Source: Liolophura sinensis (Eukaryota > Mollusca > Polyplacophora > Chitonida > Chitonidae). From it: a DNA stretch of 64,000 bases. Below the pieces are notes generated by a model. The model did no database searches and was not told the origin of the DNA. It was given only the letters and a program-made list of their open reading frames with translations. Positions 15,401 to 39,826 of this stretch are shown here, one piece after another. The position numbers and the translations under genes are program-made. The number at the start of each line of letters is the position of its first letter. Positions within the stretch are counted from its first letter, which is position 1. The stretch lies in NCBI RefSeq assembly GCF_032854445.1, contig NC_088299.1, positions 14,255,608 through 14,319,607 of the forward strand. Reading direction: 5' to 3'.

Positions 15401-18400
15401 AAAATCCAAGACTATCACTACATAGGTACATCCTTAGCTAGGATTGGAAATGCAGGTTAATCATATGGAAGGAGTAAACCCTTAAGCACATGTGACATCA
15501 CAATGAATATTCAAGAGGGGAAAATGAGGCTTTTCACAGGAACGAATGTGTTAGAACCATTAAACAGTACATGGGTTTAAGAAAGTAAAAAGAAGATGTT
15601 CTAATCTGATTATTTTTACTTATTTATTTAATGTCAACACTTTCTTTCATTAATGAATGCCAACTGATGAGAGAATCCTGTTGATCTGGCAAGATTTATT
15701 TATTTGATTTACTCCTCTAATATATTTAACAATATTTCTCTTATACCACAGCGGCCAGGCAGGCCTTCCCACGTACGACCGCAGAGGGGGAAGTCAGCTT
15801 GAGATGGCCTTGAACTCACAGTGATGGCATTTGTGAGAGGCTTGATCTGGTAAGAGTTATCCACCCTAATCTGATGATTACCTCCCTTCTATGATGTGTG
15901 ATCAGTTCAGGTGTGGACATCCTACAACCAGTTTTTAAATCAACCGAAGCCTCCACATCATGTAATCATAGGTTTCTATGATAGATGTTTGCATGTGTTA
16001 TATCACTGATCCATTAAGCTGCTGCAATACTATCACGAGGCCACTAGAATTGCACATTCCTTCTAATTTTTGGGACACTTGGTCTGCTCTTTTTAGCCAA
16101 TATACATAAAATTGTAGCAGGTAGATTTCCTCTTGGTCCACATGGTTAGTCCATCTAATGAAAAACATATTCATATCTTGACTTTTCAAAAAAACTTGTA
16201 ACTCATTGCTTTCAGCACAACTAATATCTGTCCTAAAAATTAGAAGAGTTAAAGTACATGTAAACTCCCAACATATGCATGCATGGTCTATACAGATCAT
16301 GACAGCACGTTTGAGATGATCTTACAGAGGAATAGAGATTTACCCTCGTAAGATCCAGTCAATTTTTCCTGTGCACAGTTCACAAGACTATTTGAAGCCA
16401 TAAACAAGTGGTATTCATAGGCATTTCATGAAATTCATTTTAACATGATTTTAAATTTGGAATCTTTTACGTAAAACATTTGAGTTTATTCCTTGTATCA
16501 GCATAATAGTTAGTCCCTTTCCTGGAGAACTTTTAATTTATTCCACGTACATGTATCTGTGTGAGAATTTTTTTTAGATTATTCCCTGTATCTGTGTGAC
16601 AAACTATGAACATTGTGTTTTACCTAAAGTTAAGCATTTTTCAAGTTCTGATAAATTCATCCACATCATAAGGCCACTTAAAAGTCTTTTGTGAAATTAA
16701 AATAATTTTTTCCAGAAATGTATGTGTTGGCATCAAAAGTATTATTTTAAAGCCTTTATCTGAAAGTTCCGTTTTTACATACTAAACTTCATGTGAAATA
16801 CACTATATTCCATGATCTGCCTGAAATTTGGAGTTTTCTCCTTTTCTTGCATGCTGTTACAAGACTCACCTCTCCTCCATGTCGAGCCAGAGTGATGTAG
16901 CTGAGGTCAGGAGGCAGGGCACCCTCATTAGCAGCTCGTGCAGCCTCTGGGTTGGGGTAAGGGTCAGGGAACCGGTCAGACAGCTTTCCAGGCCTCTGGA
17001 ACATTTTGCCTTCCTCGTCTGGACCATCAGTGACCATAACCTGAGATTTATTAAAGTAATAATAAATGCAGGAACAAGAGAAAGGTCAGTTTTATACAGT
17101 GCAAGATGAGTACAGAAGCAATACTAAAGCCAACCACTTATTGTCATCTGGGCTCATGTAAAGTGAGCCCCATGTCCAAAACCGGGGTGGACAAAGAATT
17201 CGGCAGATCTGGAGTTCTTTCCCTCACCTCAGCGGCCTCTGCCTTGGCCTCCTCCTCTGTGTGTGAGACACCGATCAGGTTCCTGTAGCAGAGGTATTCC
17301 ATGCTGTGACAGGCTGAGCATACCTGTTTGTACACCTGGTAGCCACGCCGAATACTGCAACAGTTTAGAACAGTGTCATTATTGACTTAATTTGTAATGA
17401 CCTGGGTTTGTTTATTTATTTATCTGATTGGTGTTTTATGCCGTACTCAAGAATATTTCACTTATACGACGGCGGTCAGCATTATGGTGGGAGGAAACCA
17501 AGCACAGGCTGGGGAAAACCCATGACCATCCACAGGTTGCTGGCAGACCGTCCCATGTACGGCCAGAGTGGAAACCAGCATGAGTTGGACTTGAACTCAC
17601 AGCGACTGCATTGGTGAGAGGCTCACCTCAGTCATTACGCTGCGCTAGCATGCTAACCAACTGAGCCACAGAGGCCGCGACCTGGGTTTAATGTGAGGTC
17701 ATCATTCTTATTTTAAGCTCTTGTCAAAACATGTGAATGGCAAAACATTTTAAACTCTAAGGCCCCATGATGGCAAACAAGTTTACAATGTATGTGGACG
17801 AAACCAGACGAAGCCCAGCTACACAACCAAACACCTTACCAGGATGCAGACAAATGCCAATCTAAAAACGACGACAAAAGCAACTTCATTGGTCCTGGGC
17901 TAGGAAACCTCTACCAGAAGTCATAAGCCTCTCTGGGCAATGGTTCAGTCATCCTGAAGAAAACACTAGCTCTGTCATTCTACTCAAATTTTTGTGCAGT
18001 TTCAGTGATGTTCAAAACAGCAACTCGGCATACGTACAAAATACATAACTAAACCATGGAGATCATTCAGGTATAGGTGTCATTTAGAAGATGGATTAAG
18101 CAACAGTATTATCGTTATTAGGGATTACACTTTCTGAATATAGCACAGATTCACACAAAACCTAATGTTTTCATAGTGCATGTTCATGATGCATATTCAC
18201 TGTAGAGTCTACTGGTCAACTACTTTCTATTTTAGAAGGCTTGCTCATTGAGTGGTCTAGACGGTTGACATGTATTGCTGGCGATTTGGTGCCTGACTCT
18301 GAGGTCGCTGCTTCGCAACCCGTAGCCAATTTTCAACACCCAAATCTGTGCAATGTTCAGGAAGTGAATCCTAATAACGATAATACTGTCGCAGAGATCA

Positions 18401-21400: not shown

Positions 21401-24286
21401 TGAGGTCTATTTCCTCATATATGAAGTGTTGCATGGAATCGAAGGGTGAAACATGAGCCTTGTCCTGGTATACAAAGTCTTGCATGGAGTTGAAGGGTGA
21501 AACATGAGCCTTGTCCTGGTATATAAAGTCTTGCATGTAGTCGAATGGTGAAACATGAGCCATGTCCTGGTATATAAAGTCTTGCACGGAGTCTAAGGGT
21601 GAAACATGAGCCTTGTCCTGGTATATGAAGTGTTGAAACATGAGCCTTGTCCTGGTATATGAAGTCTTGCATGGAATCGAAGGGTGAAACATGAGCCTTG
21701 TCCTGGTATATGAAGTCTTGCATGGAGTCGAAGGGTGAAACATGAGTCTTGTCCTGGTATATAAAGTCTTGCACGGAGTTGAAGGCTGAAACATGAGCCT
21801 TGTCCTTGTATATGAAGTGTTGCATGAAGTCAAAGGGTAAAACATGAGCCTTGTCCTTGTATATGAAGCGATGCATGAAGTCAAAGGGTAAAACATGAGC
21901 CTTGTCCTTGTATATGAAGTGTTGCATGGAGTCGAAGGGTGAAACATGAGCCTTGTCCTGGTATATGAAGTCTTGGACGGAGTCAAAGGGTGAAACATGA
22001 GCCTTGTCCTTGTATATGAAGCGATGCATGAAGTCAAAGGGTAAAACATGAGCCTTGTCCTTGTATATGAAGTGATGCATGAAGTCAAAGGGTAAAACAT
22101 GAGCCTTGTCCTTGTAGATGAAGTGTTGCATGGAGTCGAAGGCTGAAACATGAGCCTTGTCCTGGTATATGAAGTCTTGCACGGAGTCAAAGGGTGAAAC
22201 ATGAGCCTTGTCCTGGTATATGAAGCGATGCATGAAGTCAAAGGGTAAAACATGAGCCTTGTCCTTGTATATGAAGTGTTGCATGGAGTCGAAGGCTGAA
22301 ACATGAGCCTTGTCCTGGTATATGAAGTCTTGCACGGAGTCAAAGGGTGAAACATGAGCCTTGTCCTGGTATATGAAGCGATGCATGAAGTCAAAGGGTA
22401 AAACATGAGCCTTGTCCTTGTATATGAAGTGTTGCATGAAGTCAAAGGGTAAAACATGAGCTTTGTCCTTGTATATGAAGTGTTGCATGGAGTCGAAGGG
22501 TGAAACATGAGCCTTGTCCTGGTATATGAAGTGATGCATGAAGTCAAAGGGTAAAACATGAGCCTTGTCCTTGTATATGAAGTGTTGCATGAAGTCAAAG
22601 GGTAAAACATGAGCCTTGTCCTTGTATATGAAGTGTTGCATGGAGTCGAAGGGTGAAACATGAGCCTTGTCCTGGTATATGAAGTCTTGCACGGAGTCAA
22701 AGGGTGAAACATGAGCCTTGTCCTTGTATATGAAGTGTTGCATGGAGTCGAAGGCTGAAACATGAGCCTTGTCCTGGTATATGAAGTCTTGCACGGAGTC
22801 AAAGGGTGAAACATGAGCCTTGTCCTGGTATATGAAGCGATGCATGAAGTCAAAGGGTAAAACATGAGCCTTGTCCTTGTATATGAAGTGTTGCATGGAG
22901 TCGAAGGCTGAAACATGAGCCTTGTCCTGGTATATGAAGTCTTGCACGGAGTCAAAGGGTGAAACATGAGCCTTGTCCTGGTATATGAAGCGATGCATGA
23001 AGTCAAAGGGTAAAACATGAGCCTTGTCCTTGTATATGAAGTGTTGCATGGAGTCGAATGGTGCTTCCTTGGAATTTTTATTTTAGTGACAGTCAGTGAT
23101 AGCTCGTCAAATCAATTACTTGATCCCTGATAAACTTTTGGCAGGAGAAAAATTATCCTTACACCTGACCACCCTATTTGTTTACTATGAGATGTCCCAA
23201 ACAGTACATTTCTGGCATCAAGTTTCACTTCCTCACAATGACTACTTGGCCTAGGCGATACACCCGTTAATCACTGGACTCATTTAATTCACAAACAGTA
23301 AATTCAGGTGGTATATTCAGTAATTGATTTCAAACATCTGCCTGCTCCCTATATAAAACTGATACATGTTCCAGCTTTTTATAGTTACACCAAGTACTTT
23401 GCACTGTACAATGTAGTTTTTGGATACCAAAGAATCAGTAAATCCTAAATACCACATCGCTTTACACATGCTTAGCAGTCAAGGCTAAGTATTCAGTTTT
23501 TAACTGAATTTTATCACCGAATACCGGGGTCTAAAATCGATGTGTATGAATCCCTGATAGCATGCGCGCATCTTCTTCATTTTCCATGTGGCCTCAGATA
23601 CAATCTGAATTTTGGAAACACCGCAATTTTGAAGACAGAAAAGACAACACTTCATCAGGTTTTTGCACATAACTAGTCTCAAATTGACTGAAAATTGCAG
23701 GAGTGATCGAAAAGATCCATCCCTTCTCAGTCCACACGAGAAATCGATGTGTGCCACAGTTTTGGAATACACTGAACTGACCACCGCAAAGTGCCTAGCG
23801 AAAATAGACCTACCGGGTTTTTGAATTCATAGATTAACCACTGAGCTAGGTAATATCAAAAGCTGTTGAAAATAGACCACAACGTTTAAATTTATTGAAC
23901 TACTTTTCACGATAAACGTCTAAAAAGTGGATCATCGACTAACAAATACATCAACCCTGTCTTTACAACTGCCATGTACTTCTGTCACCACAAACACCAA
24001 GGTGTCAACAACTGCTGTAAGTTGTGAACGATACGTTTACGTAAAAGCTACAGTGTTGTTGTTGTAAAGGTGCATGTCGAAAATCCAGTTGACCTCTGTT
24101 ACAATGTTCCTCAGAAATTGTTTGAGATCAATATTTTTTGACACACTCCCGATACCAAACTTTCCTGATGTTCTTTGGATGTCAGTGCATTGAAACATGA
24201 GCGGATAAACAAACCTGTGGAGGATGGATCACAGAAAAGGCTCTTAAAAGAGACCTATTTGGTGATCGGACACATATCGTCGCCAT
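12331..24286 (-). CDS. CYC1: Cytochrome c1, heme subunit of respiratory complex III (8 exons)
   Basis: This gene encodes the c-type heme protein of ubiquinol-cytochrome c reductase, which passes electrons from the Rieske protein to cytochrome c on the outer face of the mitochondrial inner membrane. Exons on the minus strand: 24286-24215, 20067-20023, 19675-19536, 17354-17228, 17040-16870, 15071-14924, 14355-14255, 12432-12331. They sum to 906 bp, all phases agree, and the product is 301 residues (human about 325). Visible features: an Arg-rich, acid-poor presequence (1-39), a hydrophobic sorting segment (about 40-60), the heme-attachment motif CSACH (98-102), [10 protein letters not shown] with the axial Met (221), and a C-terminal membrane helix (269-283) followed by FKRHKW. 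The start codon is the only ATG giving a basic leader in phase. Intron 1 is 4.1 kb and holds a 51-bp minisatellite. GPAA1 lies head to head upstream. Confidence 0.97.
12774..12842 (-). mobile_element. SINE-A 3' fragment (CYC1 intron 7)
   Basis: Antisense tail fragment: TTTATTTATTCATTTATTTG, then GGTGTTTTACACCATACTCA and TTTCACTTATACGACC. It is truncated after the tail domain, about 35 bp from a second copy in the same orientation. Confidence 0.75.
12876..13065 (-). mobile_element. SINE-A copy (CYC1 intron 7)
   Basis: Antisense copy from TTTATTTATTTGATTGGTG through GCATTATAGTGGGAGGAAAC and GGTTGCTGACAGATCTTCCC to GAGCTGGACTTGAAC. It lacks the tRNA-like head. Confidence 0.85.
14255..14355 (-). 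CDS. CYC1: CYC1 exon 7
   Basis: Codes residues 235-268. The segment with [17 protein letters not shown] and RKRLGLK is one of the most conserved stretches of cytochrome c1. The acceptor TTCAG and donor GTAATG are both visible, and the phase joins exon 6 to give EDGTPAT. Confidence 0.97.
14924..15071 (-). CDS. CYC1: CYC1 exon 6
   Basis: Codes residues 186-234 and the first base of Gly235. It contains [24 protein letters not shown] and AIAM, whose Met (221) is the sixth heme-iron ligand in this family. The donor is GTATGT. Confidence 0.97.
15685..15850 (-). mobile_element. SINE-A degenerate copy (CYC1 intron 5)
   Basis: A decayed antisense copy: TATTTATTTGATTTACTCC, AATATTTCTCTTATACCACA, GCGGCCAG, then CTTCCCACGTACGACC and CTTGAACTCACAGTGATGG. 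It has an internal deletion of the GGTTTCC segment. Confidence 0.7.
16870..17040 (-). CDS. CYC1: CYC1 exon 5
   Basis: Codes residues 129-185. It contains [40 protein letters not shown] and [14 protein letters not shown], diagnostic of mitochondrial cytochrome c1. The acceptor is CTCAG and the donor GTGAGT. Confidence 0.98.
17228..17354 (-). CDS. CYC1: CYC1 exon 4 (heme-binding motif)
   Basis: Codes residues 86-128. It contains [18 protein letters not shown], where CSACH (98-102) binds the heme covalently through both Cys and uses His as an axial ligand. The acceptor TTGCAG and donor GTGAGG are clear. A full SINE-A lies 51 bp upstream of the acceptor. Confidence 0.98.
17405..17680 (-). mobile_element. 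SINE-A full-length copy (CYC1 intron 3)
   Basis: The most complete copy: tail GATTGGTGTTTTATGCCGTA, body GGCGGTCAGCATTATGGTGG and GGTTGCTGGCAGACCGTCCC, B-box region GACTTGAACTCACAGCGACT, and A-box region CTAACCAACTGAGCCACAGA, all in antisense. The tRNA-like head and the conserved 3' half make it a tRNA-derived SINE. It sits 51 bp from CYC1 exon 4. Confidence 0.9.
18766..18937 (+). mobile_element. SINE-A copy with internal deletion (CYC1 intron 3)
   Basis: Sense copy with head CCTTCGTGGCCAAGGTGGTT, AGGAGCCTCTCACCAATGTG and CAGCAACCTGCTGATGGTCG. It then jumps to ATCAAATAAATAAATAAAC and so lacks the central tail domain. Confidence 0.8.
19536..19675 (-). CDS. CYC1: CYC1 exon 3
   Basis: Codes residues 40-85 and two bases of Ser86. 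The hydrophobic Gly/Ala/Val segment ([16 protein letters not shown]) is the inner-membrane sorting part of the bipartite presequence. It is followed by [12 protein letters not shown] and SSLDHA, the conserved start of the mature protein. The acceptor is CTTGCAG and the donor GTTAGT. Confidence 0.97.
20023..20067 (-). CDS. CYC1: CYC1 exon 2 (45-bp presequence exon)
   Basis: Codes residues 25-39, [15 protein letters not shown], a basic stretch without acidic residues, as expected for a mitochondrial presequence. The acceptor TTTGCAG and donor GTAAGC flank it and both ends are phase 0. FSKGKKA aligns in position with the basic residues before the hydrophobic segment in vertebrate CYC1. Confidence 0.88.
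21412..23060. repeat. 51-bp minisatellite in CYC1 intron 1 (~32 copies)
   Basis: Head-to-tail 51-bp units, each with GAAACATGAGCCTTGTCCT and GTATATGAAG words. Three unit types alternate over much of the array, giving a 153-bp higher-order period. The period is a multiple of 3 and the unit lacks stops in two minus-strand frames, so two overlapping open frames of over 540 codons run through it (21393-23018 and 21415-23049). I read them as by-products because they lie in an intron between firmly placed CYC1 exons. One unit near 21630 is shortened. Confidence 0.95.
24215..24286 (-). CDS. CYC1: CYC1 exon 1 (start and presequence)
   Basis: Codes residues 1-24, [20 protein letters not shown] then HPPQ. 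Three Arg and no acidic residue are typical of a mitochondrial targeting leader. The donor CAG/GTTTGT leaves phase 0, matching exon 2. The 4.1 kb distance to exon 2 is the main uncertainty. The leader character, the phase and the position facing GPAA1 support it. Confidence 0.85.
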
Positions 24287-26216: not shown

Positions 26217-26391
26217 ATGATGGGTCTTTTAACAGACACAAAGCAACGAGAGAAACTGTGCAACATTATTGTCAAGTTCAACTCTAAACTCTGTCTGGTG
26301 GGATACGTTGTTGGTTTTTGCTGGTTTCTTGCGTTAGGTTATCAGCCGTTTAATGCTGGTACATACTTCTCAGAAAATGCACTTCTGCCGG
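26217..26391 (+). CDS. GPAA1: GPAA1 exon 1
   Basis: Codes residues 1-58 and one base of Gly59. MGLLTD, the hydrophobic LVGYVVGFCWFLALGY and TYFSENALLPG match the family start, ER anchor and first luminal residues. The donor is GTATGT. Two consecutive ATG codons open the frame. Confidence 0.95.
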
Positions 26392-29300
26392 GTATGTATT
26401 CAATTTGAATATAGTACAGGGCTTACAAACAAGATTTGTGCAGTCCATGTAATGTAAGGAGAGCGCTATCAACTCTAAATTTTCTTGGCAAAAAGTAACT
26501 GGACATACATTTACTTGTAGTATCCTCTACCAAAAATATACCCGCTATATGTTAATATACTTAATTTACTTGTTTGATTGTTCAAAAGTTTAAAACCACA
26601 GTGGAAAAGCTTTCATTTATATACATGCAGTGGCAATCGGTTTTATGATTCGAGAAAACCAGAGTGCTTAGGATCATAAAGCTCATCATACAATCACAAT
26701 CATGTATAAATATGATGAGGATGGCTTTAAACAGTACATTATGCTATAGCCCCCACTTAGGCCGACAGGGTCTTGTGTTGTCAGAGTCATTACAATTGGT
26801 TGGTTGAATAGAAACTTACGAAGGAGGGATGGGGACTATGCTGATTTCATCCTGGATGTTTCAAACACATACACTGTGAGCAACTTGAGCACCTAGATGG
26901 ATGTTGATTTTCTGTTGGACAGGTATTGTTGACGCTGATTACTACCATCAAGCTGATTTTCATAGCAATTTCAAAGAGCTTGAGAAGGAGTTGGAAAGTG
27001 ATAAAAGGTAAGATTGATCTAACGTTGGAAGCAGTTTTGGGAAAGGAAAAGACGGAATGAATGACCTATAATGTAGTGAATTAGGTAGGTTAACGTTGTA
27101 TTGTGATTTATTCACCAATGTAAAAACATTTATGTCAAACTTAACAATGTTTTAGTCATATGAGGATGAGGAGACATTAGATGTGAATAGGGTTAAACAA
27201 TACAGCAGTTTTAAATAGGGCGGTTGTCTTAAACAGTTTTATCTGCTTGTAATCATCATCAGAATGTAATCATATTGTTGAAATTTGTTAAGTTTGAAAA
27301 GTGGGTTAAATGTGAAAATTACATGTATCAATTCCATGTCAGCAATTTATTACCTGACAAAATTGCCTGTTTCACTTCAATATGCTGATGTTTGCCAATC
27401 TCATTTTAATGTGACACTTTGCATTATTTTTCTTTATTTTGCAGGAAAGTACCAAAAGAATGGTTGTATAGAAAATTCCAGTCCCTAGGTTTAGACGTGT
27501 ACATTCAGAACTTCAGCATCAGATATCCTCTAAGTCTGTTACCTGAAGGACAGGTGAGTGGTCATAATGTCTGTATCAGACATCCCATAAGTCTGTTACC
27601 TGAAGGTCAGGTGAGTGGTCATAACATCTGTATCAAACATCCCATAAGTCTGTTAACTGAAGGTCAGGTGAGTGGTCATAATGTCTGTATCAGACATCCC
27701 ATAAGTCTGTTACCTGAAGGTCAGGCGAGTGGTCAGAACATCTCTATCAGACATTCACTGAAGGATAGGCGAGTGGTCATAACGTCTGTATCAGACATCC
27801 CATAAGTCTGTTACCTGAAGGTCAGGCGAGTGGTCAGAACGTCTGTATCAGACAGCCCATAAGTCTGTTACCTGAAGAATAGGTGAGTGGTCATAACGTC
27901 TGTATCAGACATCCCATAAGTCTGTTACCTGAAGGTCAGGTGAGTGGTCATAACGTCTGTATCAGACATCCCATAAGTCTGTTACCTGAAGAACGTGAGT
28001 GGTCTGAACGTCTGTGTCAGACATCCTGTAAGTCTGTTGTCTCTAAGTGTGTTACCTAGGGAACAGGTAATTGGTAAAAACCTGTTTCAAATGTCCCTAA
28101 ATCTTTAATCTGAAGGGCAGGTGAATGGTAAGAACCAGCTGTGCGAGGGACCTATAAACACATGTACATAAATGAAATGCTATACTTTCTGTTTTTAGTG
28201 TACCTTTCATTATAGTCTGACGTGGACATTTCTTGGAGGAAATTTTACATTTCCCCGAGAGCCTCCATGACTAAGGAGGTTAGCACACCAGCACGGCGCA
28301 ATGACCCAGAAGCCTCCCATCAGTGTGGTCGCTGACTTCCTCTGTGGCCGCACTTGGGAAGGTCTGGCATCAGCCTGCAGATGGTCGTGTGTTTCCTCCA
28401 GTCTTTTTCCAGTTTACTTTCACCATAATACTGGTCGCCGTCGTACAAGTGAAGTAGTTTTGAAGATGGCATAAAACATCAATCAAAGAAATAAATGAAT
28501 AATTCAGATATTCTCAAGGTCTGTTACCAGAAGGAGAAGTAAGTGGTCAGAAAGTCTGTATCAGACATCCCATAAGTCTGTCCGCCAAGTGTGTTACCTG
28601 AGGGACAGGTGAGTGGTCAGAACCTGTATCAGGTATCCCCCAAGTATGTTACCTGGGGTCAGGTCAGTGGTCAGAATCTGTATCAGATATCCCCCAAGTG
28701 TGTTACCTGGTGGACAGGTGAGTGGTCAGAATCTGTATCAGATATCCCCCAAGTATGTTACCTGAGGGACAGATGAGTAGTCAGAACCTGTATCAGATAT
28801 CCCCCAAGTGTGTTACCTGGAGAACAGGTGAGTGGTTAGAGCCTGTATCAGATATCCCCCAAGTGTGTTACCTGGAGTGAGTGGTCAGAATCTGTATCAG
28901 ATATCCCTAAATCTTTAATCTGAAGGGCAAGTGAATGGTAAGAGCCAGGTTTGCGAGGGACCTATAAACACATGTACACAAATGAAATGCTGTAGTTTGT
29001 ATGTCACGTGTGGTGCAGTTTGTATGTCACGTGTGGTGCAGTTTGTACGTCACGTGTGGGGCAGTTTGTATGTCACATGTGGGGTAGTTTGTATGTCACA
29101 TGTGGGACAGTTTGTACGTCACATGTGGGGTAGTTTGTACGTCACGTGTGGTACAGTTTGTATGTCACATGTGGGACAGTTTGTACGTCACGTGTTGGTC
29201 AGTTTGTATGTCACGTGGGGTAGTTTGTACATCACATGTGGGACAGTTTGTACGTCACATGTGGGACAGTTTGTATGTCACATGTGGGACAGTTTGTACG

Positions 29301-32300
29301 TCACATGTGGGACAGTTTGTACGTCACGTGTTGGGCAGTTTGTATGTCACGTGGGGTAGTTTGTAGGTCACATGTGGGACAGTTTGTACGTCACATGTGG
29401 GACAGTTTGTACGTCACATGTGGGACAGTTTGTACGTCATGTGTGGGGCAGTTTGTATGTCACATGTGGGGTAGTTTGTAGGTCACATGTGGGACAGTTT
29501 GTACCTCACGTGTGGGACAGTTTGTATGTCACATGTGGGACAGTCTATGTCACGTGTGGGGTAGCTTGTACGTTGTGTGGTGGTCTATACATCACATGGG
29601 GTAGTTTGTACGTCACGTGTGGGACAGTTTGTACGTCACATGTGGGACAGTTTGTACGTCACGTGGGGTAGTCTTTACGTCACTTGTGGGATAGTCTTTA
29701 CATCACATCTAGTTTGTATGTCACGTGTTGGTGAGTTTGTATGTCACGTGTGGAAGAGTTTGTACAATACATGTGGGGCAGTTTGTACGTCACATGTGGG
29801 GCAGTCTGTACGTCACATGTGGGGTAGTTTGTCAGTAACATGCTGAAGGACTGTGCTTTACCATGGGCACTACAGTTTCTTTTACTCATTAAACTGACTG
29901 CAACAGTATGAGTGACACATTCTTGAGCATAGAAATAAAATTCATCACACATATGTATCATTGAGAAGTTAGCTTCTTACACTTTTCAAATCTTGCCAAC
30001 AGGTAAAGAAAGTGATTGATGTGAGAAAATAAATCCCACCTTCTGATTGCCAATTTATGTTTATACCCTTGTGTTACTTTATTTTGTGTACTTGTGCAGG
30101 TTTTACCAGGTGAGAATGTGTATGCCATTCTGCGGGCCCCTAGGGCATCCAGCACAGAGGCTGTCGTACTGTCCTCCCTGTTCCGCCCTCTGGCCAGTCC
30201 TTACAGCAAAACTACAGCAGGCATTGCCCTCATGCTCGCATTAGCAAACAACTTCAGAAGTGAGTACATATACTAATCCTCTTTATTCACATATCTGAAC
30301 ATTGAATACTGTAATTAAGAATTTTTGTTGTTAGGCAAGAAAACAATGCTGACATGCTGTTAAATTCGCCATGGGTCCCTATTCATGGGTTTTGTTGATT
30401 CCTAAAGTCTAAAGTACAAAAGGACACGGAAACTACATGTACTGTATTTGAAGGCTAGGCACACTCTTACTACCTTTCCAGAAAGAATTTCTTCCCTAAA
30501 AGCTATATTTTTCATTTTTTTTTTTTTTTGGTAAAATCTGATTCAACGCCTATCTCGCCTAGGTTAAATTCACCTTTTTTCACCTTAGGGCTTTCCTGGC
30601 TCAGGCATCATGAAGCACACTTTACATGTAGCTAAATATTAAAAGCCCTAAACTACTATGACAGCACATGTTGTGGAGATATGTAGTGCTCTTAGCTAGA
30701 GGCTACTGCATACGACTACGTGTGCTTCATGAAGTTGACCTCTGGTCAGGTGCAGTTCGTCCATTAATATGTCACCTTTACGGTCCATTTGATAATGGAA
30801 AATTATCGTGTGCATGCTCTTTCAGTTATGTAGAAAGGCACAATTTACATCACCACTGCATCCCTCTTTCAGTTGTATAGAAAGGCGGAATTTACATCAC
30901 CACTGCGTCCCTCTTTCAGTTGTATAGAAAGGCGGAATTTACATCACCACTGCGTCCCTCTTTCAGTTGTATAGAAAGGCGGAATTTACATCACCACTGC
31001 ATCCCTCTTTCAGTTGTATAGAAAGGCAGAATTTACATCACCACTGCATCCCTCTTTCAGTTGTATAGAAAGGCGGAATTTACATCACCACTGCATCCCT
31101 CTTTCAGTTGTATAGAAAGGCAGAATTTACATCACCACTGCATCCCTCTTTCAGTTGTATAGAAAGGCGGAATTTACGTCACCACTGCGTCCCTCTTTCA
31201 GTTGTATAGAAAGGCGGAATTTACGTCACCACTGCGTCCCTCTTTCAGTTGTATAGAAAGGCGGAATTTACATCACTGCATCCCTCTTTCAGTTGTATAG
31301 AAAGGCGGAATTTACATCACCACTGCATCCCTCTTTCAGTTTTATGGAGAGGCGAAATTTACATCACCACTGCATCCCTCTTTCAGTTGTATAGAAAGGC
31401 GGAATTTACATTACCACTGCGTCCCTCATAATTTCTGATAGAGTGGCCTACAGACCACTGAAGTTTTTCCCTGATGGTGTTTTTGTTCCGATGAGTCAAA
31501 TTTTGAAATGCCGTATTTAAAAAGCTTTTCAGATAGCCAATGAGAATATTTGAAGAGTTGGATTTAAGATATGTGTAACATTTGCTTTTAAAACATTGAA
31601 GTTTAATGCTGAAGTATTTTCACTATACTGTAATTAAGAATTTTTGTTGTCAGGCAAGAAAACAATGCTGACATGCTGTTAAATTCAAGTTCTACAACAG
31701 AAATACTTCAATACAACATTAAACTCAAATGAGATAAATAAATCACTGCATTATTTTCAGAGCACACATACTGGGCCAAGGATATCATATTTGTTGTCAC
31801 AGAACAAGAGCAGGTGGGAATGCAAGCGTGGTTGGATGGTTATCATGGTTTCAGGCACTCAGAGTGTAAGTCTTGGCTGAAATCTCCTATTGAGCATCAA
31901 CACATTGTCATTCTGTAGGCAGTATTCAAACTACCCTGCAGCAAGGCAGACTGTTTTTCACAGCACAATATTAAAGCTTATGACCTAAAATATCACCCCC
32001 AAAAGGGCATTTGTAGGATATCATCGTACCTTCCAAACAACCCCCCCCCCCGAAAATCTGCGTAAGATCAATCCGTGAATCGGGTAAAATGTGCAGTGGA
32101 TGAGGTCATAGGTCATTCACTGTGTAGAGTATATGCATCTGACTCTTTTTTTTTTTTCCATACCCTTTAATATGATTAGTCATTGGGTTCAAAAGTGTGT
32201 TTTGTATGTGACAGAGATTACTCTTGTACTCTGTTTTGATCCAGAAGCTAGACCACTGCCTGAAGATTAATGTGAGATTTGACGATGGTACACAAAAAAT

Positions 32301-35300
32301 CCAAATTGCATTCGATCACATCATTGTTCTGTGACATTGCAGTGCTTGTGTACTACCGAGGTGTTCTATGAGCACACATACACCAATAATTGTGATGTAA
32401 TCAAGGTACAACCTAGATGTTTTATGAGCACACATACAACAATAATTGTGATGTAATCAAGGTACTACCTAGGTGTTTTATGAGCACATACACCGATAAT
32501 TGTGATGTAATCAAGGTACTACCTAGGTGTTCTATGCGCTCACATACACCAATAATTGTGATGTAATCAAGGTACTACCTAGATGTTTTATGAGCACACA
32601 TACACCGATAATTGTGATGTAATCAAGGTACTACCTAGGTGTTTTATGAGCACACATACACCGATAATTGTGATGTAATCAAGGTACTACCTAGATGTTC
32701 TATGAGCTCACATACACAGATAATTGTGATGTAATCAAGGTACTACCTAGGTGTTCTATGAGCACACATACACCAATAATTGTGATGTAATCAAGGTACA
32801 ACCTAGATGTTTTATGAGCACACATACAACAATAATTGTGATGTAATCAAGGTACTACCTAGATGTTTTATGAGCACACATACACCGATAATTGTGATGT
32901 AATCAAGGTACTACCTAGGTGTTTTATGAGCTGACAAACAACGGAGTTCTGCTCTGGATTTTTGTATTGATGCCAGTTCCAACATGGATGCATTGATGTA
33001 GCCTTGAGTACAGCATAAGTTATCTTTGTAATACAGGTAGTTTAATGTTTTAGGATGCAGTTCAATATTTCACAGCTATATACATTATATATCCATGCAT
33101 ATATTGATTTCTACTGATTATTGGTCATTTATGTTGTCTTTCACCTTGTCATTAAGAATGAAACTGTTTTCAACAAAAATGCATGTATAACCTGGCTTAA
33201 CAGAATAAAACTAGTATGTCATATATAATAAAAAAATTGTCCTAGACTATCAAAGCTGACAGTAAATTGCTACCCTGAACAAATTAAAATACCAAAAACT
33301 TCAGCAATTAAGAGTGTTGGGGAATAAATTTTATGTCTAGTAAGCACCTCAACCAATACAGTGGCATGGCTGAAAAAAGCACCTCTGTGGTTTAGAGACG
33401 AAAACACTTATGATAAGAAATCAGGAAGTTAAATCGGTGAAATTTCAAACAAAAACGAATACTAATTATAATTCCTGGGATGATAATGAATGAATTATTT
33501 GTTGCTATCATGACTTTTGTAAAGCTTATAATGGGTGAGAAATCAAGAAATTAATTCAGTGAATGTTGGTGGAAGGGTGCTTTATTTACATTTGTTATTA
33601 TTTATCCTTTAGATATCATGGCAGATGACTTGAAAGGTCGTGGGGGGGCCATCCAGGCTGCCATCAACCTGGAGATTGCTAATGACAAAAACACTCACCT
33701 GAACATTAAGATTGAAGGCCTGAATGGTCAGCTACCAAATCTTGACCTGGTTAACTTGGTGGTCAAACTGTGCCGCAGAGAGGGCATCCGACCAACTCTG
33801 CATAAAAGGGTAAGTATCCAATCCTTCACATGAGGCCGTATGAAATAAACAAACTGACACACAGGTAAGTTTTTGTAATTGCAGTTATGTCTTTAGCTCA
33901 CAAGCATGAAGAAACATTAAAGCAATGTCATGTTAGAAGTCATATCTTCTCAGAAGTAATAATTTGTAATAAAAATACAAAATGTTCTTAGTGTTTTTGT
34001 AATAAGGCTAAACTTTGCATCTTGCAAACTACTTGTTCACTGATGTTTATATTTCTTCATTTGATCATTTACATGTATTTGTATCATAGTAGTCCTGTGC
34101 CATGGCAAAGAATTACATTGAGAAGTTCACAACTAATTCTGTTCTGTACAGAATACAAACTGTGAGGTTTATCATTAATTCAACTAATGAATCAGTCAGT
34201 TTTTTGGACAGCATACATGCATATTTCTTTCTAAAAGTACAATACATATTTAAAGTTTTGGAGTTCTGTTTTGTGTGATTTGACTTATATGTTCACACAC
34301 ACCTGTACCGGCCCTGATAGCACGGTTGGTAGAGCGTCCACTTCAGGAACGGTAGATCCAGGGTCAATCCTGGGTCGGGTCACAGCTAAGACTTTAAAAG
34401 AGGAAGTTGTAGTTTCCGCGCTTGGCGTTCAGCATTAAGGAGATATTGCAGCGACTGGTTGACCCGTATCAGTATGATGGCTTATGCTGGACAACTTACT
34501 TGCCTTCAGTAAGTTGTCTCATTGAAGCAGCACTAGATAAAAGAGGAGTGGAATCTGTCCTGCTACAAGGAGGCACATTACATGTACGTACACTCTAAGG
34601 ATTCCTTCGTCGTCATATGACTGAAAAATTGTTAAGTACAACGTTAAACCCCAAGTACTCACTCACTCACACATCTCTGTAGGATGACCACAGGCGCCCG
34701 GAGAGCCAGGCCGGTTTCACACATACCCTGAAGACGATGTTTGCTATGATGTGGTCACAGGCCACAGGCATGGCATCCGGGAACCACGGACTGTTCCACC
34801 GCTATAACATCGAGGCTTTAACTCTGGAGGGATTCAGGAAGAAGAACCACGAGGCGAGAGACCTCAGCACCTTGGCACAGTAAGACCGCTGCATTCTTGA
34901 CTTTGTTCATGTTACTAGCCCCTTCCCTGTGCCTGTTGGAAGACTATGAGTTTACAAATGTACGTGATGTCCTTCAGCCCGTCATAAGACAACTTGTTTG
35001 AGTGGCATTTAGAAGTTGGGATGAAGTACACTGGACAAGGCATTCTTATGGATATACAACTTTGTGGTTTTATAACACAATGTTTCCATGTAGTTACCAA
35101 CATCTTGATATCAATGTCCAGTGTACATAATAAGACAGTTTTCCAAATTTGCTTTCATAACTCATCGTCGGATCGAATTGGAACTTGTTTCACGGCCTTA
35201 CCATAACAAATTTACAGATTATTTCGAGTTTTGATCCTTTTCATCCCTTTTGACACAAAATTAGAGTCCACTAAAGTCCTGTTTTGAAATCTAATCTTAT

Positions 35301-38300
35301 GTTACTATTAAGAATATTTTTGTAAAGATATATTTCCCTGCCTTGTTTTGTTGTTTGTGTATGCCCCCAAAGTATAATAGTGGTCTTGCTAACAGTTTGC
35401 ACCTCTCACTCCATTTAAAGACCACATGATAAAAAAAATGCATCAGTTTGATCATGAAATTAATTACTTGTTGGTTTCAGGTTGTTTTTGACAATAAAAA
35501 CAATTATGACGTAATAGAACCATTTGCACTGATGTTTTTGTCTGTCTCTATGTTTTTCAGAGTTGTGGAAGGAACATTCCGAAGTCTGAACAACCTCCTA
35601 GAGAGATTCCACCAGTCATTTTTCTTCTACATTCTTCCATCAACCAATCGTTATGTGTCTATTGGGTTGTACATGCCACCTCTGGCCCTGATGGTACTGC
35701 CGTGTCTCATCAAGGTATGCTTGTCTGATATCACATTATAATGTTGTCATGTGTCTATTGGGTTGTACATGCCACCTCTGGCACTGATGATACAGCCGTG
35801 TTTCATTAAGGTATGCTTGTCTGATATCATGTTAAAATGTTATCATGTGTCCATTGGGTTGTACATACCACCTCTGAAACTGATGATACAACCATGTCTC
35901 ATCAAGGTATGCTTGTCTGGTATCACATTATAATGTTGTCATGTGTCTATTGGGTTGTACATGCCACCTCTGGCACTGACAATACAGCCGTGTCTCATCA
36001 AGGTATGCTTGTGTGATATCATGTTATAGTGTCATCATGTGTCTGTTGGGTTGTACATGCCACCTCTGGCACTGACGATACAGCCGTGTCTCATCAAGGT
36101 ATGCTTGTCTGATATCATGTTATGATGGTATCTTGTGTCTATTGGGTTGTACGTGCTGCCACTGACAATTTCAGATCAAAATTTTCCAGAATCGAACTTG
36201 GTTATTCAATCATTAGTTACATTGTATAATGATAACTTGGCTATTCAGTGATCAGTTATGTTTTGTATTGACAACAAGGTTGTGTAATGACAACTGAATT
36301 TGTGTAATGACAACTAAGATCGTGTAATGACGACTTGGGTTGTGCAATGACGGCTTATGTTGTGTATTGACAAGCTAGGCTGTGTTATGACAACTTAGGT
36401 TGTGTAATGATAACTTGGTTGTTTAATGATCATTTACATTTTGTAATGACAACTTAAGTTGTTAAATAATAACCTAATGTAATAAAGTTTCCTGATATAG
36501 TGATGGCTCATTCATGTTACTCTTAACTTCTCACCCTAATGTAAAACATTTGACTGTAAACCAGGCTGTGGCCTTGTGGATTTTGGTGGGACAAAGAGAG
36601 AGGAAGAAATTAGAGGAGAAAGCTGAAGAGGAGAGTAAAAAGTCCACAGATGAAGGGGACAAAGTGAGTGGAGATGCAATGGGAGATACAGCTGCAAATG
36701 GAGACGATGACAGTGACTTTGAAGAAGAAGAGGAATCGGTAAACTGTTCTTACATCTCTTTCTTCTCAACAAATTTGTGTGAAATGAATTCTTGATATAA
36801 ACCTGGTCCTAAATAGTTTCCATAGCGATGCCTGTATTATTTTCCTTCCTGAATGTACCTTGTAACTGTCATATCTGTTTTCATGAGGGTGTTTTCGGGT
36901 GTTAAATCACACCATATTTTGAAAGAATTTTTAAAGTTTCCATTCCTTTGACTTTCTGGACCATGAAGTTTTTGAACGTCAAACATGTCAAATGAAAAGT
37001 AAGGGAATACATACACCTTTGCCATACATGCCACCACTGTGCCTTTATTTCATTTCACATGGTCAGTCAATTTGTGTATAGCCATGATGGCGTAGAGTCA
37101 TTGTTTTTTTTATTCTCCCTTTTCTTTCCAGGATCTCCAACAGTCCACCTGGGTGCAGATTGTGCCAATTATCTTAGTTTCCATGGTGATTGGTATGCTT
37201 GCCTACACGGGTCCAAACATCTTTGCAGCATCTGCCCAGTCCTTCCGACTGCTCACGGATGATGCTCTCACCTTTGGAATTCTCGCGCTGTTTTTAGCTG
37301 GATTATTTTTCCCAAATATTGTAGCAAAGTGAGTAAAGACTCAATTCTGAATATTAGAGATAATTATGAGATATTGGTAGATATCTTATTATGAGATAAT
37401 TCCCCCAGCATACACACATACCCATACATGTTTTTGTCATAGACAACAAAAATGGATGGAAGGAGTTGGAAATGGTGCTAGGTATCTGTTCTACATTCCA
37501 TCCATTCATTCAATGTACATTTTGAATGTGTTATCTGGAAAGCAACACTAGGGACTCTCTCTTCAAACTATAGAAGTAGCTTGTCATCAGTTAACTTCTT
37601 GGTCCAAGATTGGTGCCTTCCGTCATGTTAATTTGCATTCGGCTGTTTCCTTTCTGTAAATGCAATGTCTTGAAAACAAATGATGAAGTGGACTCCCATC
37701 GGCCATCTTTGATGTCAAGCAGAGGTGTTTCACATTCAGTTTCCCCTGTCATACATTTTGTCATCACCATAACATTGTATCATCAACATGACATTTTGCC
37801 ATCTCCTTGACATTTTGCCATCACTTTGACATTTGGCCATCACCTTGACATTTGGCCATCACCTTGACAATTATCATCACTAACATTTTCTCATCACCGT
37901 AACATTTTGGAAACTCATTTACATTTGTTCTCAATTTAACATTATCACCATGACATTTTGTCATCATCTTAACATTCTGTTATTGCCTTAACAGTTTGTC
38001 ATCACCTTGACAGTTGATCATCACCTTGACAGTTTATCATCACCATAGCATTTTCCCATCACCTTGACAGTCTGCCATTACAGTTTGACATTTTCCCATC
38101 AATGTAACATTTTGTGATGACCTTGATATTTTTGCCATTACCATAACATACTCCATGAGCTATTTTCTTCAAACAGCGTTGTTATTTCGTTTTCCAGGAA
38201 GTCTGAAGGGCTGCAGTTTAACTGGGAGGTTCTCAAATGTGTCACCCTCATCTATCAGAGCCTCTGGATATTCTCAGCAGCCCTTATGAACATCTCATTG

Positions 38301-39826
38301 GCTTATTTCCTAGCCGTTGTCATGGTGCCTGTCACAGTGATGGCTCATCCAATCAAAAACAGGTAAGCATTGATGTATTATTAGCTAGACTAAAAGTGGT
38401 TAAAGGAAAGATAAGGAGGTAACTGCAAATGGGTTGCAGTTGCTCTGTTTTCAGTATTGTTAGATGGAATTTTGTAAAAACAAACCACTGCTACAATTTA
38501 TCGCCTTGTCAGCTTAGAGATTTACTTTTTAGTACATATTCCCTTGTTGGAAATTGCACTCTGCATTAATTCCAGTCTAATTTATATCATGTTGTGGTTT
38601 GCTGCAGTTGTTGTGTCTAGCGGATGTTTAACTGTGGTTTGCTGCAGTTGTTGTGTCTAGCGGATGTTTAACTGTGGTTTGCTGCAGTTGTTGTGTCTAG
38701 CAGATGTTTAACTGTGGTTTGCTGCAGTTGTTGTGTCTAGCGGATGTTTAACTGTGGTTTGCTGCAGTTGTTGTGTCTAGCAGATGTTTAGCTGTGGTTT
38801 GCTGCAGTTGTTGTGTCTAGCGGATGGTTAACTGTGGTTTGCTGCAGTTGTTGTGTCTAGCAGATGTTTAGCTGTGGTTTGCTGCAGTTGTTGTGTCTAG
38901 CAGATGTTTAGCTGTGGTTTGCTGCAGTTGTTGTGTCTAGCAGATGTTTAGCTGTGGTTTGCTGCAGTTGTTGTGTCTAGCAGATGTTTAGCTGTGGTTT
39001 GCTGCAAATTAGAAATGCAAATGCATGAAATGATCATTCTTTGTTTCCACTTACGGTAACGTAAGTTTTGCTAGGAGGTTTAAAGGTTGAATTAAACTTG
39101 TTGTAGACTGCCATAATACAAAAGGTGCCACCATTTTTATATTGTGTTTTACAGGCGAACCAACACTAAGAAATTTTTTAAAAAACGAAATAAAAAGTTA
39201 AACTGAAAACCTGGTTTTCTTTAGTATTTTCCTTTTTTTTTCAAGGCTTTCTGATTGTGTTCAAGAGGAAATATTGTTGAAATAGTCTGGATTTTCCACA
39301 AATTAGATGATTTTTCAAATTTTTCACATCATCAAAAGATTTATTCTGCCCGTAAAAACTTGAATTGGTGTGACCTAATACAAACTGTTCTGGTACAAGT
39401 AGTGAAATTAATTCTGAGACTATAGATTACAAGGTGATCATTGTATTTGTAATGCACTTTGAAAGTTCTGATATGGGTCAAATACAGTAAGGAACCAGCA
39501 TTATGGGGTTGTGTTATTAAAAACTTCATTTTACTCATTGTCCACTTGGGTTCTGTTTCAGGTTATGTCACATGTTACAGATGCTCCTGATGTTGGCCGT
39601 CTCCCCGCCTGCTCTACTCTATATAGCCGCTCTTGTCGAGTCGTATGGTGGGAAACACTTCAGTTACAGCCTGTGGCCAGGGAAGGCTTGGGATGTCCTG
39701 AAACAGTCTTTGTTCCTGTCCATTCTTGACAACTATTTAATCGGCAACTGGATCTTCTCTTTCTTCAGTTTTGCTGTCATGCCAAGCTGGCTGATGTCCT
39801 GGGCAGTCACCAGAATAGGCAGATGA
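26217..39826 (+). CDS. GPAA1: GPI transamidase subunit GPAA1 (12 coding exons)
   Basis: GPAA1 is part of the ER membrane complex that attaches preformed GPI anchors to proteins. Exons: 26217-26391, 26923-27007, 27445-27553, 30100-30259, 31761-31865, 33613-33809, 34683-34879, 35561-35714, 36565-36738, 37132-37328, 38198-38362, 39562-39826. They sum to 1983 bp, all phases agree, and the product is 660 residues (human 621). Visible features: an N-terminal MGLLTD start and membrane segment (about 21-42), a luminal M28-peptidase-like domain with NVYAILRAPRASSTEAVVL, YWAKDIVFVVTEQ and EGLNGQLPNLDL, then LERFHQSFFFYILP and VSIGLYMPPLALM, followed by several membrane helices. A Lys/Glu/Asp-rich loop (about 404-452) in exon 9 accounts for part of the extra length. 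ATG-ATG at 26217/26220 leaves the start uncertain by one codon; the second gives the family's MGLL start. Introns are packed with minisatellites. Confidence 0.97.
26923..27007 (+). CDS. GPAA1: GPAA1 exon 2
   Basis: Codes residues 59-86 and two bases of Arg87: a short charged segment with FKELEKELESDK. The acceptor GGACAG and donor GTAAGA are clear and the phases fit exons 1 and 3. Confidence 0.93.
27445..27553 (+). CDS. GPAA1: GPAA1 exon 3
   Basis: Codes residues 87-123: VPKEWLYRKFQSLGLDVYIQ then NFSIRYPLSLLPEGQ. The acceptor is TTTGCAG. The donor CAG/GTGAGT at 27553 is the first of a tandem series of nearly identical donors spaced 57 bp apart, because the last 36 bp of this exon are part of a minisatellite unit. 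Confidence 0.93.
27518..28070 (+). repeat. 57-bp minisatellite spanning the GPAA1 exon 3 donor
   Basis: The first unit (27518-27574) consists of the last 36 bp of exon 3 plus 21 intron bases. About nine copies follow, each with AAGTCTGTTACCTGAAGG, a CAG/GTGAGTGGTCA donor word and CTGTATCAGACATCC. Donors stand at 27553, 27610 and 27667; the next copy, at 27724, has CAG/GCGAGT. Later copies carry indels. The frame stays open through the first units. Confidence 0.95.
28087..28185 (+). repeat. Segmental duplication, copy 1 (GPAA1 intron 3)
   Basis: AATCTTTAATCTGAAGGGCA, GAGGGACCTATAAACACATG and AATGAAATGCT recur at 28906-28995 with few changes. Both copies lie directly after a minisatellite of the same family, so a block of array plus flank was duplicated together. 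Confidence 0.85.
28258..28500 (+). mobile_element. SINE-A full-length copy (GPAA1 intron 3)
   Basis: Sense copy with head GAGCCTCCATGACTAAGGAG, AGCACACCAGCACGGCGCAA, GGTCTGGCATCAGCCTGCAG, CACCATAATACTGGTCGCCG and tail AATCAAAGAAATAAATG. It separates the two blocks of exon-3-derived minisatellite. Confidence 0.85.
28506..28915 (+). repeat. ~55-bp minisatellite, second block of the exon-3 family
   Basis: About seven copies of a unit related to the 57-bp array: TCCCCCAAGTGTGTTACCTG, ACAGGTGAGTGGTCAGAA, CCTGTATCAGATA. It shares the donor-like CAGGTGAGTGG but has diverged in length and sequence. With 28906-28995 it looks like a duplicated and then independently expanded block. Confidence 0.9.
28906..28995 (+). 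repeat. Segmental duplication, copy 2 (GPAA1 intron 3)
   Basis: Second copy of the 28087-28185 segment (AATCTTTAATCTGAAGGGCA, GAGGGACCTATAAACACATG). It runs directly into the 23-bp array. Confidence 0.85.
28996..29850 (+). repeat. ~23-bp minisatellite with E-box-like core (~37 copies)
   Basis: Head-to-tail copies near the consensus GTTTGTACGTCACATGTGGG plus ACA, some 1-3 bp shorter. Each copy carries CACGTG or CACATG, so the array holds dozens of E-box-like words. Several 80-140-codon open frames here are repeat by-products. Confidence 0.95.
30100..30259 (+). CDS. GPAA1: GPAA1 exon 4
   Basis: Codes residues 124-176 and one base of Lys177. GENVYAILRAPRASSTEAVV and TTAGIALMLALANNF belong to the M28-like luminal fold. 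The acceptor is TTGTGCAG and the donor GTGAGT. Confidence 0.97.
30301..30366 (+). repeat. 66-bp duplicated segment, copy 1
   Basis: TACTGTAATTAAGAATTTTT and AAGAAAACAATGCTGACATG recur at 31621-31688 with one or two changes. The two copies flank the 47-bp array in the same intron. Confidence 0.85.
30815..31430 (+). repeat. 47-bp minisatellite with splice-acceptor-like word (~13 copies)
   Basis: Head-to-tail 47-bp units: TCCCTCTTTCAG, TTGTATAGAAAGGCGGAATT and TACATCACCACTGC. Every copy contains a pyrimidine tract followed by CAG, which resembles a 3' splice site, in GPAA1 intron 4 upstream of the real acceptor at 31760. Confidence 0.95.
31621..31688 (+). repeat. 66-bp duplicated segment, copy 2
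   Basis: Second copy of 30301-30366 (TACTGTAATTAAGAATTTTT, AAACAATGCTGACATGCTG), downstream of the 47-bp array. Confidence 0.85.
31761..31865 (+). CDS. GPAA1: GPAA1 exon 5
   Basis: Codes residues 177-211 with YWAKDIIFVVTEQEQVGMQA and WLDGYHGF, typical of the GPAA1 luminal domain. The acceptor is TTTTCAG and the donor GTAAGT. Confidence 0.97.
32340..32940 (+). repeat. ~58-bp minisatellite (GPAA1 intron 5, ~10 copies)
   Basis: Head-to-tail units with TTTTATGAGCACACATACAC, AATAATTGTGATGTAATCAA and GGTACTACCTAGGTG. Each copy includes CAAGGTACT, a weak donor-like word. Confidence 0.95.
33613..33809 (+). CDS. GPAA1: GPAA1 exon 6
   Basis: Codes residues 212-277: GRGGAIQAAINLEI, IEGLNGQLPNLDLVNLVV and LCRREGIRPTLHKR. 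EGLNGQLPNLDL is a family signature. The acceptor is CCTTTAG and the donor GTAAGT. Confidence 0.98.
34309..34678 (+). mobile_element. SINE-B full-length copy (GPAA1 intron 6)
   Basis: Head GGCCCTGATAGCACGGTTGG with a good A-box, B-box region GGGTCAATCCTGGGTCGG, body CGACTGGTTGACCCGTATCA and CTGCTACAAGGAGGCACATT, tail CGTCGTCATATGACTGAAAA and ACGTTAAACCCCAAG with ACTC repeats. It ends only a few bases before the GPAA1 exon 7 acceptor at 34682, so the SINE supplies the sequence just upstream of that acceptor. Confidence 0.9.
34683..34879 (+). CDS. GPAA1: GPAA1 exon 7
   Basis: Codes residues 278-342 and two bases of Gln343: TLKTMFAMMWSQATGM, HGLFHRYNIEALTLEGF. The acceptor is CTGTAG, just past a SINE tail, and the donor is GTAAGA. 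Confidence 0.97.
35561..35714 (+). CDS. GPAA1: GPAA1 exon 8
   Basis: Codes residues 343-394: NNLLERFHQSFFFYILP and RYVSIGLYMPPLALMVLP, the most conserved part of the protein at the start of the membrane domain. The acceptor is TTTTTCAG. The donor AAG/GTATGC is copied in a 96-bp tandem array that begins inside this exon. Confidence 0.97.
35655..36175 (+). repeat. 96-bp minisatellite spanning the GPAA1 exon 8 donor
   Basis: Units start at 35655, 35751, 35847, 35943, 36039 and 36135 (partial), an exact 96-bp step. Each full unit copies the last 60 bp of exon 8, the AAG/GTATGC donor and 36 bp of intron. Donor copies stand at 35714, 35810, 35906, 36002 and 36098. Unlike the exon 3 case, the frame meets TAA at 35739 just past the first donor. 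Confidence 0.97.
36240..36480 (+). repeat. Degenerate ~20-bp array (GPAA1 intron 8)
   Basis: Loose repeats of TTGTGTAATGACAACT and GGTTGTGT words, about ten copies with much drift. Confidence 0.75.
36565..36738 (+). CDS. GPAA1: GPAA1 exon 9
   Basis: Codes residues 395-452: a short hydrophobic start (AVALWILVGQ), then a basic/acidic stretch (RERKKLEEKAEEESKKS) and an Asp/Glu run, likely a hydrophilic loop between membrane helices. Less conserved than its neighbours, but the splice sites (CCAG, GTAAAC) and the phase fit. Confidence 0.92.
37132..37328 (+). CDS. GPAA1: GPAA1 exon 10
   Basis: Codes residues 453-517 with two membrane segments: VPIILVSMVIGMLAYTG and FGILALFLAGLFFPNI. The acceptor is TTTCCAG and the donor GTGAGT. 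Confidence 0.96.
37740..38155 (+). repeat. Degenerate ~20-bp array (GPAA1 intron 10)
   Basis: Irregular repeats of TTTGCCATCACCTTGACA-like words, about 20 copies with insertions. It ends about 40 bp before the exon 11 acceptor. Confidence 0.8.
38198..38362 (+). CDS. GPAA1: GPAA1 exon 11
   Basis: Codes residues 518-572: NWEVLKCVTLIYQSLW and MNISLAYFLAVVMVPVTVM, a membrane segment resembling the family's NFSLGF-type region. The acceptor is TTTCCAG and the donor GTAAGC. Confidence 0.96.
38593..39006 (+). repeat. 40-bp minisatellite (GPAA1 intron 11, ~10 copies)
   Basis: Nearly perfect 40-bp units: TGTGGTTTGCTGCAGTTGTT and GTGTCTAGCGGATGTTTAAC, with alternating CGGATG and CAGATG variants. Identity between copies is very high, which suggests recent expansion. 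Confidence 0.97.
39562..39826 (+). CDS. GPAA1: GPAA1 exon 12 (terminal)
   Basis: Codes residues 573-660 plus TGA: MLAVSPPALLYIAALVES, the amphipathic KAWDVLKQSLFLSILDNYLI, and a last membrane helix (WIFSFFSFAVMPSWLMSW). The acceptor is GTTTCAG. The length and final hydrophobic segment agree with the family C-terminus. Confidence 0.97.

Follow-up and report, generated by a model that had tools for sequence, protein, structure and literature searches.

A minisatellite built from an exon end and its splice donor in GPAA1, and similar arrays in other genes of the same genome

The window analyzed here is a stretch of 64,000 nucleotides (C5:14255608-14319607) from a 609-Mb assembly. A GPAA1 gene lies on its forward strand, and a 12-exon model was built with a human GPAA1 sequence as the tblastn probe. 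Matches to PF04114 (Pfam) and to GPAA1 in the PDB agree with the model. Exon 3 is of phase 0, ends with the residues LLPEGQ at its donor, and was aligned to positions 87-114 of the human GPAA1 chain (PDB, E 0.013, weak taken alone), and exon 4 was aligned to positions 124-171 (E 9.6e-6). Exon 8 encodes the conserved HQSFFFYILP...VSIGLYMPP stretch. Exons of cytochrome c1 (CYC1) were found near GPAA1, on the reverse strand at 16792-17386 (PF02167, E 1.1e-20 and 2.9e-17); the human GPAA1 and CYC1 genes are near neighbours too. The features of the gene and of its repeats are as follows, all on the forward strand.

26220-39827, +: GPAA1 gene, 12-exon model from the ATG at 26220 to the coding end (exon-by-exon PF04114 matches, tblastn, sequence inspection)
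27445-27553, +: GPAA1 exon 3, of which the last 36 nt (27518-27553) are the first array copy (inspection and human GPAA1 alignment)
27518-28038, +: array 1, about nine 57-bp units (36 nt of exon end, then the donor within 21 nt of intron), one unit 13 bp short (TRF, direct repeats)
27551-27559, +: donor 1, CAG/GTGAGT, presumed main donor (sequence; protein length compared with human)
27608-27616, +: donor copy 2, CAG/GTGAGT, in phase, +19 aa (sequence)
27665-27673, +: donor copy 3, CAG/GTGAGT, in phase, +38 aa (sequence)
27722-27730, +: donor copy 4, CAG/GCGAGT, in phase, +57 aa, with less stable computed U1 pairing (sequence)
28067-28201, +: tail segment holding a decayed unit seen by eye, duplicated at 28877-29011 with 84% identity (direct repeats, inspection)
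28504-28930, +: array 2, a diverged sister of array 1 with 55-bp units in mixed phases (TRF, direct repeats)
30100-30259, +: GPAA1 exon 4 (inspection and human GPAA1 alignment)
35561-35714, +: GPAA1 exon 8 (human GPAA1 match, E 1.1e-13)
35653-36156, +: second minisatellite of exon end and donor, 96 bp x 5.2, frame closed (TRF, inspection)

The unit of array 1 comprises the last 36 nt of exon 3, ending in CAG, and 21 intron nt beginning with GTGAGT. TRF resolved two blocks of the 57-bp unit, 4.2 copies at 27518-27754 and 5.0 copies at 27758-28038, and the score of the array (760) is far beyond chance. Taken together, TRF (27505-28038), direct repeats and GPAA1 homology identify a head-to-tail array with the authentic exon 3 as its first copy, and its unit, like that of the exon 8 array, runs from the 3' end of the exon across the donor into the initial bases of the intron. 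The initial annotation of this DNA had proposed a 57-bp unit of this composition, and every coordinate checked agrees; the equivalent donors that it placed at 27553, 27610 and 27667, and the GC variant at 27724, are all present at 57-bp steps. It gave the extent as 27518-28070, and decayed units continue beyond 28070. In array 1 the CAG/GTGAGT word stands after 27553, 27610, 27667 and 27939, with the GC form CAG/GCGAGT after 27724 and 27825 and weaker forms after 27768, 27882 and 27994. The first three donors are one and the same 9-mer with an equal computed U1 pairing of -11.7 kcal/mol, compared to -7.3 kcal/mol for the GC donor after 27724. Because one unit lacks 13 bp, the donors at 27768 through 27939 are shifted out of phase. 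An assembly artefact is unlikely because the units differ from one another and a diverged sister array exists, although the copy number may still be wrong in a single assembly.

Two further arrays in the gene had escaped the initial annotation. Array 2, further down intron 3, retains the intact CAG/GTGAGT word after 28608, 28717 and 28827, and the duplicated tail segment (the copy at 28877-29011) is positioned at its 3' end. The array at exon 8 has a unit of approximately the last 62 nt of exon 8 followed by an AAG/GTATGC donor with about 34 nt of intron, and its donors stand after 35714, 35810, 35906, 36002 and 36098. Its period of 96 bp is also a multiple of three, yet an in-frame stop lies inside the first intronic unit; downstream donors keep the frame at exon 3 and do not keep it at exon 8. 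Arrays of this design are present at two of the 11 donor junctions of the GPAA1 model.

Recurrence of the design elsewhere in the genome was assessed with the donor word CAGGTGAGT. Three such words spaced 40-70 bp apart occur 787 times in the assembly, compared to 60 times for the reversed word. At least 20 CAGGTGAGT arrays were recognized by eye among the matches listed (about 100 rows, all on C1 up to 80.9 Mb), and for all 20 the 5' side was taken, the start was set by TRF and the upstream sequence was read. Frames for the Pfam scan were the longest open frame through the array start, a fixed rule, with three more picked by hand; 18 of the 20 loci were scanned, L7 and L12 being left out for a short or absent open frame. 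Seven donor loci, chosen because they were recognized, were compared with the PDB, and six of them matched, the exception being L21. Among the matches listed, seven of the 20 CAGGTGAGT arrays start within an exon that homology confirms:

L5: Mot1/BTAF1-like exon, E 1.8e-18
L9: Fe-hydrogenase C-terminal exon (Fe_hyd_lg_C), E 3.7e-13, which we take to be CIAO3/NARF
L10: OGDH exon, E 1.5e-20
L14: ABCC exon, E 9e-17
L15: CHT1 exon, E 5e-14
L18: SPT3 exon, E 7e-7
L23: cullin-1 (CUL1) exon, E 4e-14

In all seven, the homology runs up to the donor or a few residues past it, and 13-40 nt of the exon belong to the array. Loci L6, L11, L16, L20, L21, L22 and L24 are exon-like by an open frame with an acceptor or by a familiar sequence, but homology did not confirm them; L21 is presumably DERA-like, and L16 gave a RIBIOP_C match (E 0.0036) below the cut-off for that family. 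Agreement of the exon end with the next copy is poor in L6, L11, L16 and L22 (14-16 of 24 positions) and middling in L21 (18 of 24). Inspection by eye found no exon in L7, L12, L13, L17 and L19, and in L8 the array and the exon do not overlap. At E<=0.001, Pfam matched two of 18 donor-array loci and one of 14 control loci, the latter scanned from 17 reversed-word arrays after L53, L56 and L59 (under 20 residues) were left out; Pfam alone does not separate donor arrays from control arrays. The counts of seven in 20 donor arrays and one in 17 controls are not comparable as rates, the PDB searches having been made for donor loci only. The one matching control, L47, begins in a homeodomain exon (Pfam E 8.3e-23), and its array itself contains CAGGTGAGT. 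In this locus (C1:92959600-92961340) the end of the homeodomain exon (QIQVKTWYQNRRMKWKKQ) and its donor recur in a unit of 62-63 bp. No stop interrupts the first added unit, and a downstream donor, if used, would duplicate the recognition helix. Scaling the 20 arrays by 787 over the approximately 100 rows gives, as a rough guess, some 150 CAGGTGAGT arrays genome-wide, with or without exons. A more sweeping proposal is that exon-3'-end minisatellites are general in the genes of this species, at perhaps 100 junctions with the CAGGTGAGT donor alone, and that they provide competing donors in numbers that differ from one individual to another; repeat length would then tune which isoforms are made by GPAA1, OGDH, CUL1 and other housekeeping genes. 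We consider this improbable.

The array at GPAA1 exon 3 is probably a minisatellite founded on the exon end by tandem duplication, in which the first donor is the main one and the copies are passive or serve occasionally as alternative donors. Exon 3 is regarded as the source because the units carry GPAA1 codons; the exon codes for GPAA1 protein almost as far as the donor, and copies 2-4 are 83-89% identical to its last 36 nt. In the 609-Mb assembly, a 175-bp segment of array 1 has matches at its own locus alone (seven places within C5:14283112-14284440), and the exon 8 unit likewise matches only its own locus (four places), a privacy that holds at the sensitivity of a search that skips very common words. 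Tandem repeats of period 10 or more cover 10,743 of the 64,000 bases of the window, and with so high a cover chance hits on exon ends are therefore to be expected now and then. A local tandem duplication straddling the junction of exon 3 and intron 3 would have founded the minisatellite, and further duplication of units and blocks would have extended it into intron 3. Selection would keep the exonic copy only. Splicing would proceed mostly via the first donor at 27553, and the intronic copies would be largely passive, lengthening the intron, with the in-phase copies at 27610 and 27667, and less so 27724, perhaps used at a low level to place 19, 38 or 57 residues in a luminal loop.

With the first donor, eight residues separate the anchors that align with human positions 114 and 124, compared to nine in the human protein, and 27553 is likely the main donor because protein length is there close to human. 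Low-level use of 27610 and 27667 is plausible, since by sequence the next two donors are equally strong. Use of the first copy is no law, because in the human CBS 844ins68 allele, which duplicates the junction of intron 7 and exon 8, the more distal copy is strongly favoured according to the accessible text of PMC2630376. Regular use of the in-phase copies would make the array a source of GPAA1 isoforms with 19, 38 or 57 extra residues, tuned by copy number. Such isoforms, or else decoy donors, were what the initial annotation had proposed, and its proposal is partly supported. The initial annotation had stressed that the step is a multiple of three with an open frame, and rightly so: the frame of exon 3 stays open across three added units (VSGHNVCIRHPISLLPEGQ, VSGHNICIKHPISLLTEGQ, VSGHNVCIRHPISLLPEGQ) as far as 27805. 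Downstream donors would add 57, 114 or 171 nt in frame, and exon 3 would measure 109, 166 or 223 nt, all ordinary exon sizes; the identical strong donors at 27553, 27610 and 27667 and the human IFI6 precedent, in which downstream units act as donors (accessible text of PMC4526556), also argue for such a device. We nevertheless consider it unlikely. Within GPAA1 introns, a stretch of 21 nt is open in any one frame with a probability of 0.64, and an array would be in phase and open by chance with a probability of about 0.21 (1/3 for the period x 0.64). In the twin array at exon 8, a stop codon within the first unit closes the frame. Among the matches listed on C1, the main TRF period is divisible by three in seven of the 20 CAGGTGAGT arrays, which is no excess, and for the other eight exon arrays confirmed by homology (the seven loci and L47) the unit is divisible by three in three: L5 (48), L18 (45) and L47 (63, beside which some steps are of 62 bp). 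The first unit is open in only one of these three, L47. With a chance of approximately one in five, seven of 20 periods divisible by three and L47 alone open, there is, in these small numbers, no sign of selection for in-frame use of such arrays. As read from the sequence, copies 2 and 4 of array 1 agree at all 57 positions; one silent and three replacement changes set copy 3 apart from them, and the exon copy differs from copy 2 by two silent and two replacement changes. On these very few changes, the in-frame intronic copies show no coding constraint, and the pattern points to recent homogenisation. The open frame is best read as a side effect, the length of the unit simply falling on a multiple of three.

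The copies could instead act as an array of decoys, repeated U1 sites competing for U1 or shielding the intron, with GPAA1 splicing efficiency or premature polyadenylation shifting with copy number. Intact CAG/GTGAGT persists in seven of the 16 scored units of the exon 3/intron 3 arrays, the exonic unit included, but the exact word is lost in nine (GC forms, an altered exon side or a lost GT), as expected of neutral decay; this reading, drawn from sequence, seems to us quite improbable. Tandem copies that carry GT and AG at the border of an exon also recall the Rogers model, in which tandem duplication of an AGGT-bearing exon segment yields a new intron. That model, in the accessible text of PMC4974935, requires the exonic AGGT to create both new splice sites, whereas the unit here already holds 21 intronic bases and a complete donor, and the exon 4 acceptor is separate, lying before 30100 and outside the array. 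An intron bounded by duplicated exonic AGGT is thus not what is found at exon 3, and intron gain of this kind is extremely unlikely. Also weighed was whether minisatellites in this genome arise preferentially at donor sites through a mutational mechanism tied to splice junctions, for example one linked to transcription. The excess of CAGGTGAGT triples over the reversed word, on 10,097 compared to 2,731 single words (a triple rate per word of 7.8% compared to 2.2%), speaks for such seeding, as does the opening 5.3 Mb of C1, where at least three words are present at eight of the 59 CAGGTGAGT loci. Per word, however, the excess varies with how arrays are counted, from about 1.3 times by C1 arrays (the donor list reaching 81 of 96 Mb) to about 3.5 times by genome-wide triples. 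A different donor word, AAGGTAAGT, shows little (110 compared to 86 triples on 7,537 compared to 10,164 single words), and the arbitrary word GATGGTCAG of the same composition gives 326 compared to 78 triples, with single big arrays swinging the counts. For TTTTACAGG there were 193 triples compared to 70 for its reverse, on 12,205 and 12,293 single words. By eye, C1 holds at least 20 arrays of CAGGTGAGT (in 81 of 96 Mb), five of its reverse, five of GATGGTCAG, three of TTTTACAGG and three of AAGGTAAGT, and one of the five GATGGTCAG arrays sits inside the donor array of L17. Enrichment per word, compared across CAGGTGAGT and its reverse, TTTTACAGG, AAGGTAAGT and GATGGTCAG, was set aside as not robust, being dominated by a few very large arrays. 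Around 19 exons matching ABC transporters, no tandem array crosses either edge, a sample too small to bound the rate. Donors as special seeds are not established, and we think such seeding doubtful at best. The preferred reading remains a minisatellite founded on the exon end by tandem duplication.

Several other observations concern repeats near exon edges. As a proxy for acceptors, TTTTACAGG was rejected, being no commoner than its reverse (12,205 compared to 12,293) and saying little on acceptors; of at least 14 TTTTACAGG arrays listed, counted by eye, 11 3' ends were taken and 10 had a TRF array. One of these, a 28-bp array at L69 (C3:23766200-23767900), may by eye begin where an exon starts and be built from its acceptor side (CAG/GTTGACGG), a mirror case. 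In L35, the end of an ABC exon (FFDEPT) seems to recur after an AG some 60 nt downstream, perhaps as a copy of the acceptor side. The array of L37 starts about 10 nt past the likely donor of an ABC exon, and on the reverse strand of the window (54700-54830) a 33-bp x 53 array (53049-54800) follows by about 11 nt the likely donor GAG/GTAAGT of a predicted exon. Arrays may tend to abut donors, as in these two cases. A 51-bp array of at least 28 copies at 21418-23063 leaves reverse-strand frames of 572 and 555 aa open, likely just through a period divisible by three.

The exon-donor minisatellite of GPAA1 is real and unusual, and its design is already known from human CBS and IFI6; its recurrence in conserved genes of one genome is more interesting than the GPAA1 array itself. 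A natural gene with identical donors in tandem lends itself directly to testing how the spliceosome decides between equal 5' splice sites. Should the copies be silent, this would reveal how far the first donor, or exon definition, dominates. A genome that carries such arrays in a number of conserved genes would allow statistics where human CBS and IFI6 are single examples. A literature search, which covered titles and the starts of abstracts and lay mostly outside subscription papers, found no exon-donor minisatellites across a genome like this one.

The IFI6 (6-16/G1P3) minisatellite, whose repeat unit is short, was reportedly described with multiple splice donors by Turri et al. in 1995. Two downstream repeat units of human IFI6 serve as donors and give rise to three mRNAs, according to the accessible text of PMC4526556. 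Repeat units thus offer donors in both genes, but downstream use is reported there for IFI6, whereas the GPAA1 copies are candidate donors known from DNA. The human CBS 31-bp VNTR, by its name c.1444_1467+7(16_21), comprises the last 24 exonic nt and the first 7 intronic nt (accessible text of PMC2630376). An exon end and its donor are tandemly repeated in both CBS and GPAA1; the CBS unit of 31 bp is not a multiple of three and, as far as that text goes, is present in 16-21 copies and polymorphic in people, in contrast to a 57-bp GPAA1 unit with about nine diverged copies and a sister array, known from one assembly. Minisatellite expansions at exon-intron boundaries, the position seen in GPAA1, also alter splicing in human segmental duplications, with 27 intron modifications given in the accessible text of PMC2812944; those cases are recent paralogs with RNA support, while the present ones are conserved genes read from DNA. 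Tandem duplication near a splice site is likewise common to GPAA1 and the AGGT model of intron gain as set out in the accessible text of PMC4974935, but in GPAA1 no new intron was made, and an existing junction was instead copied into an existing intron.
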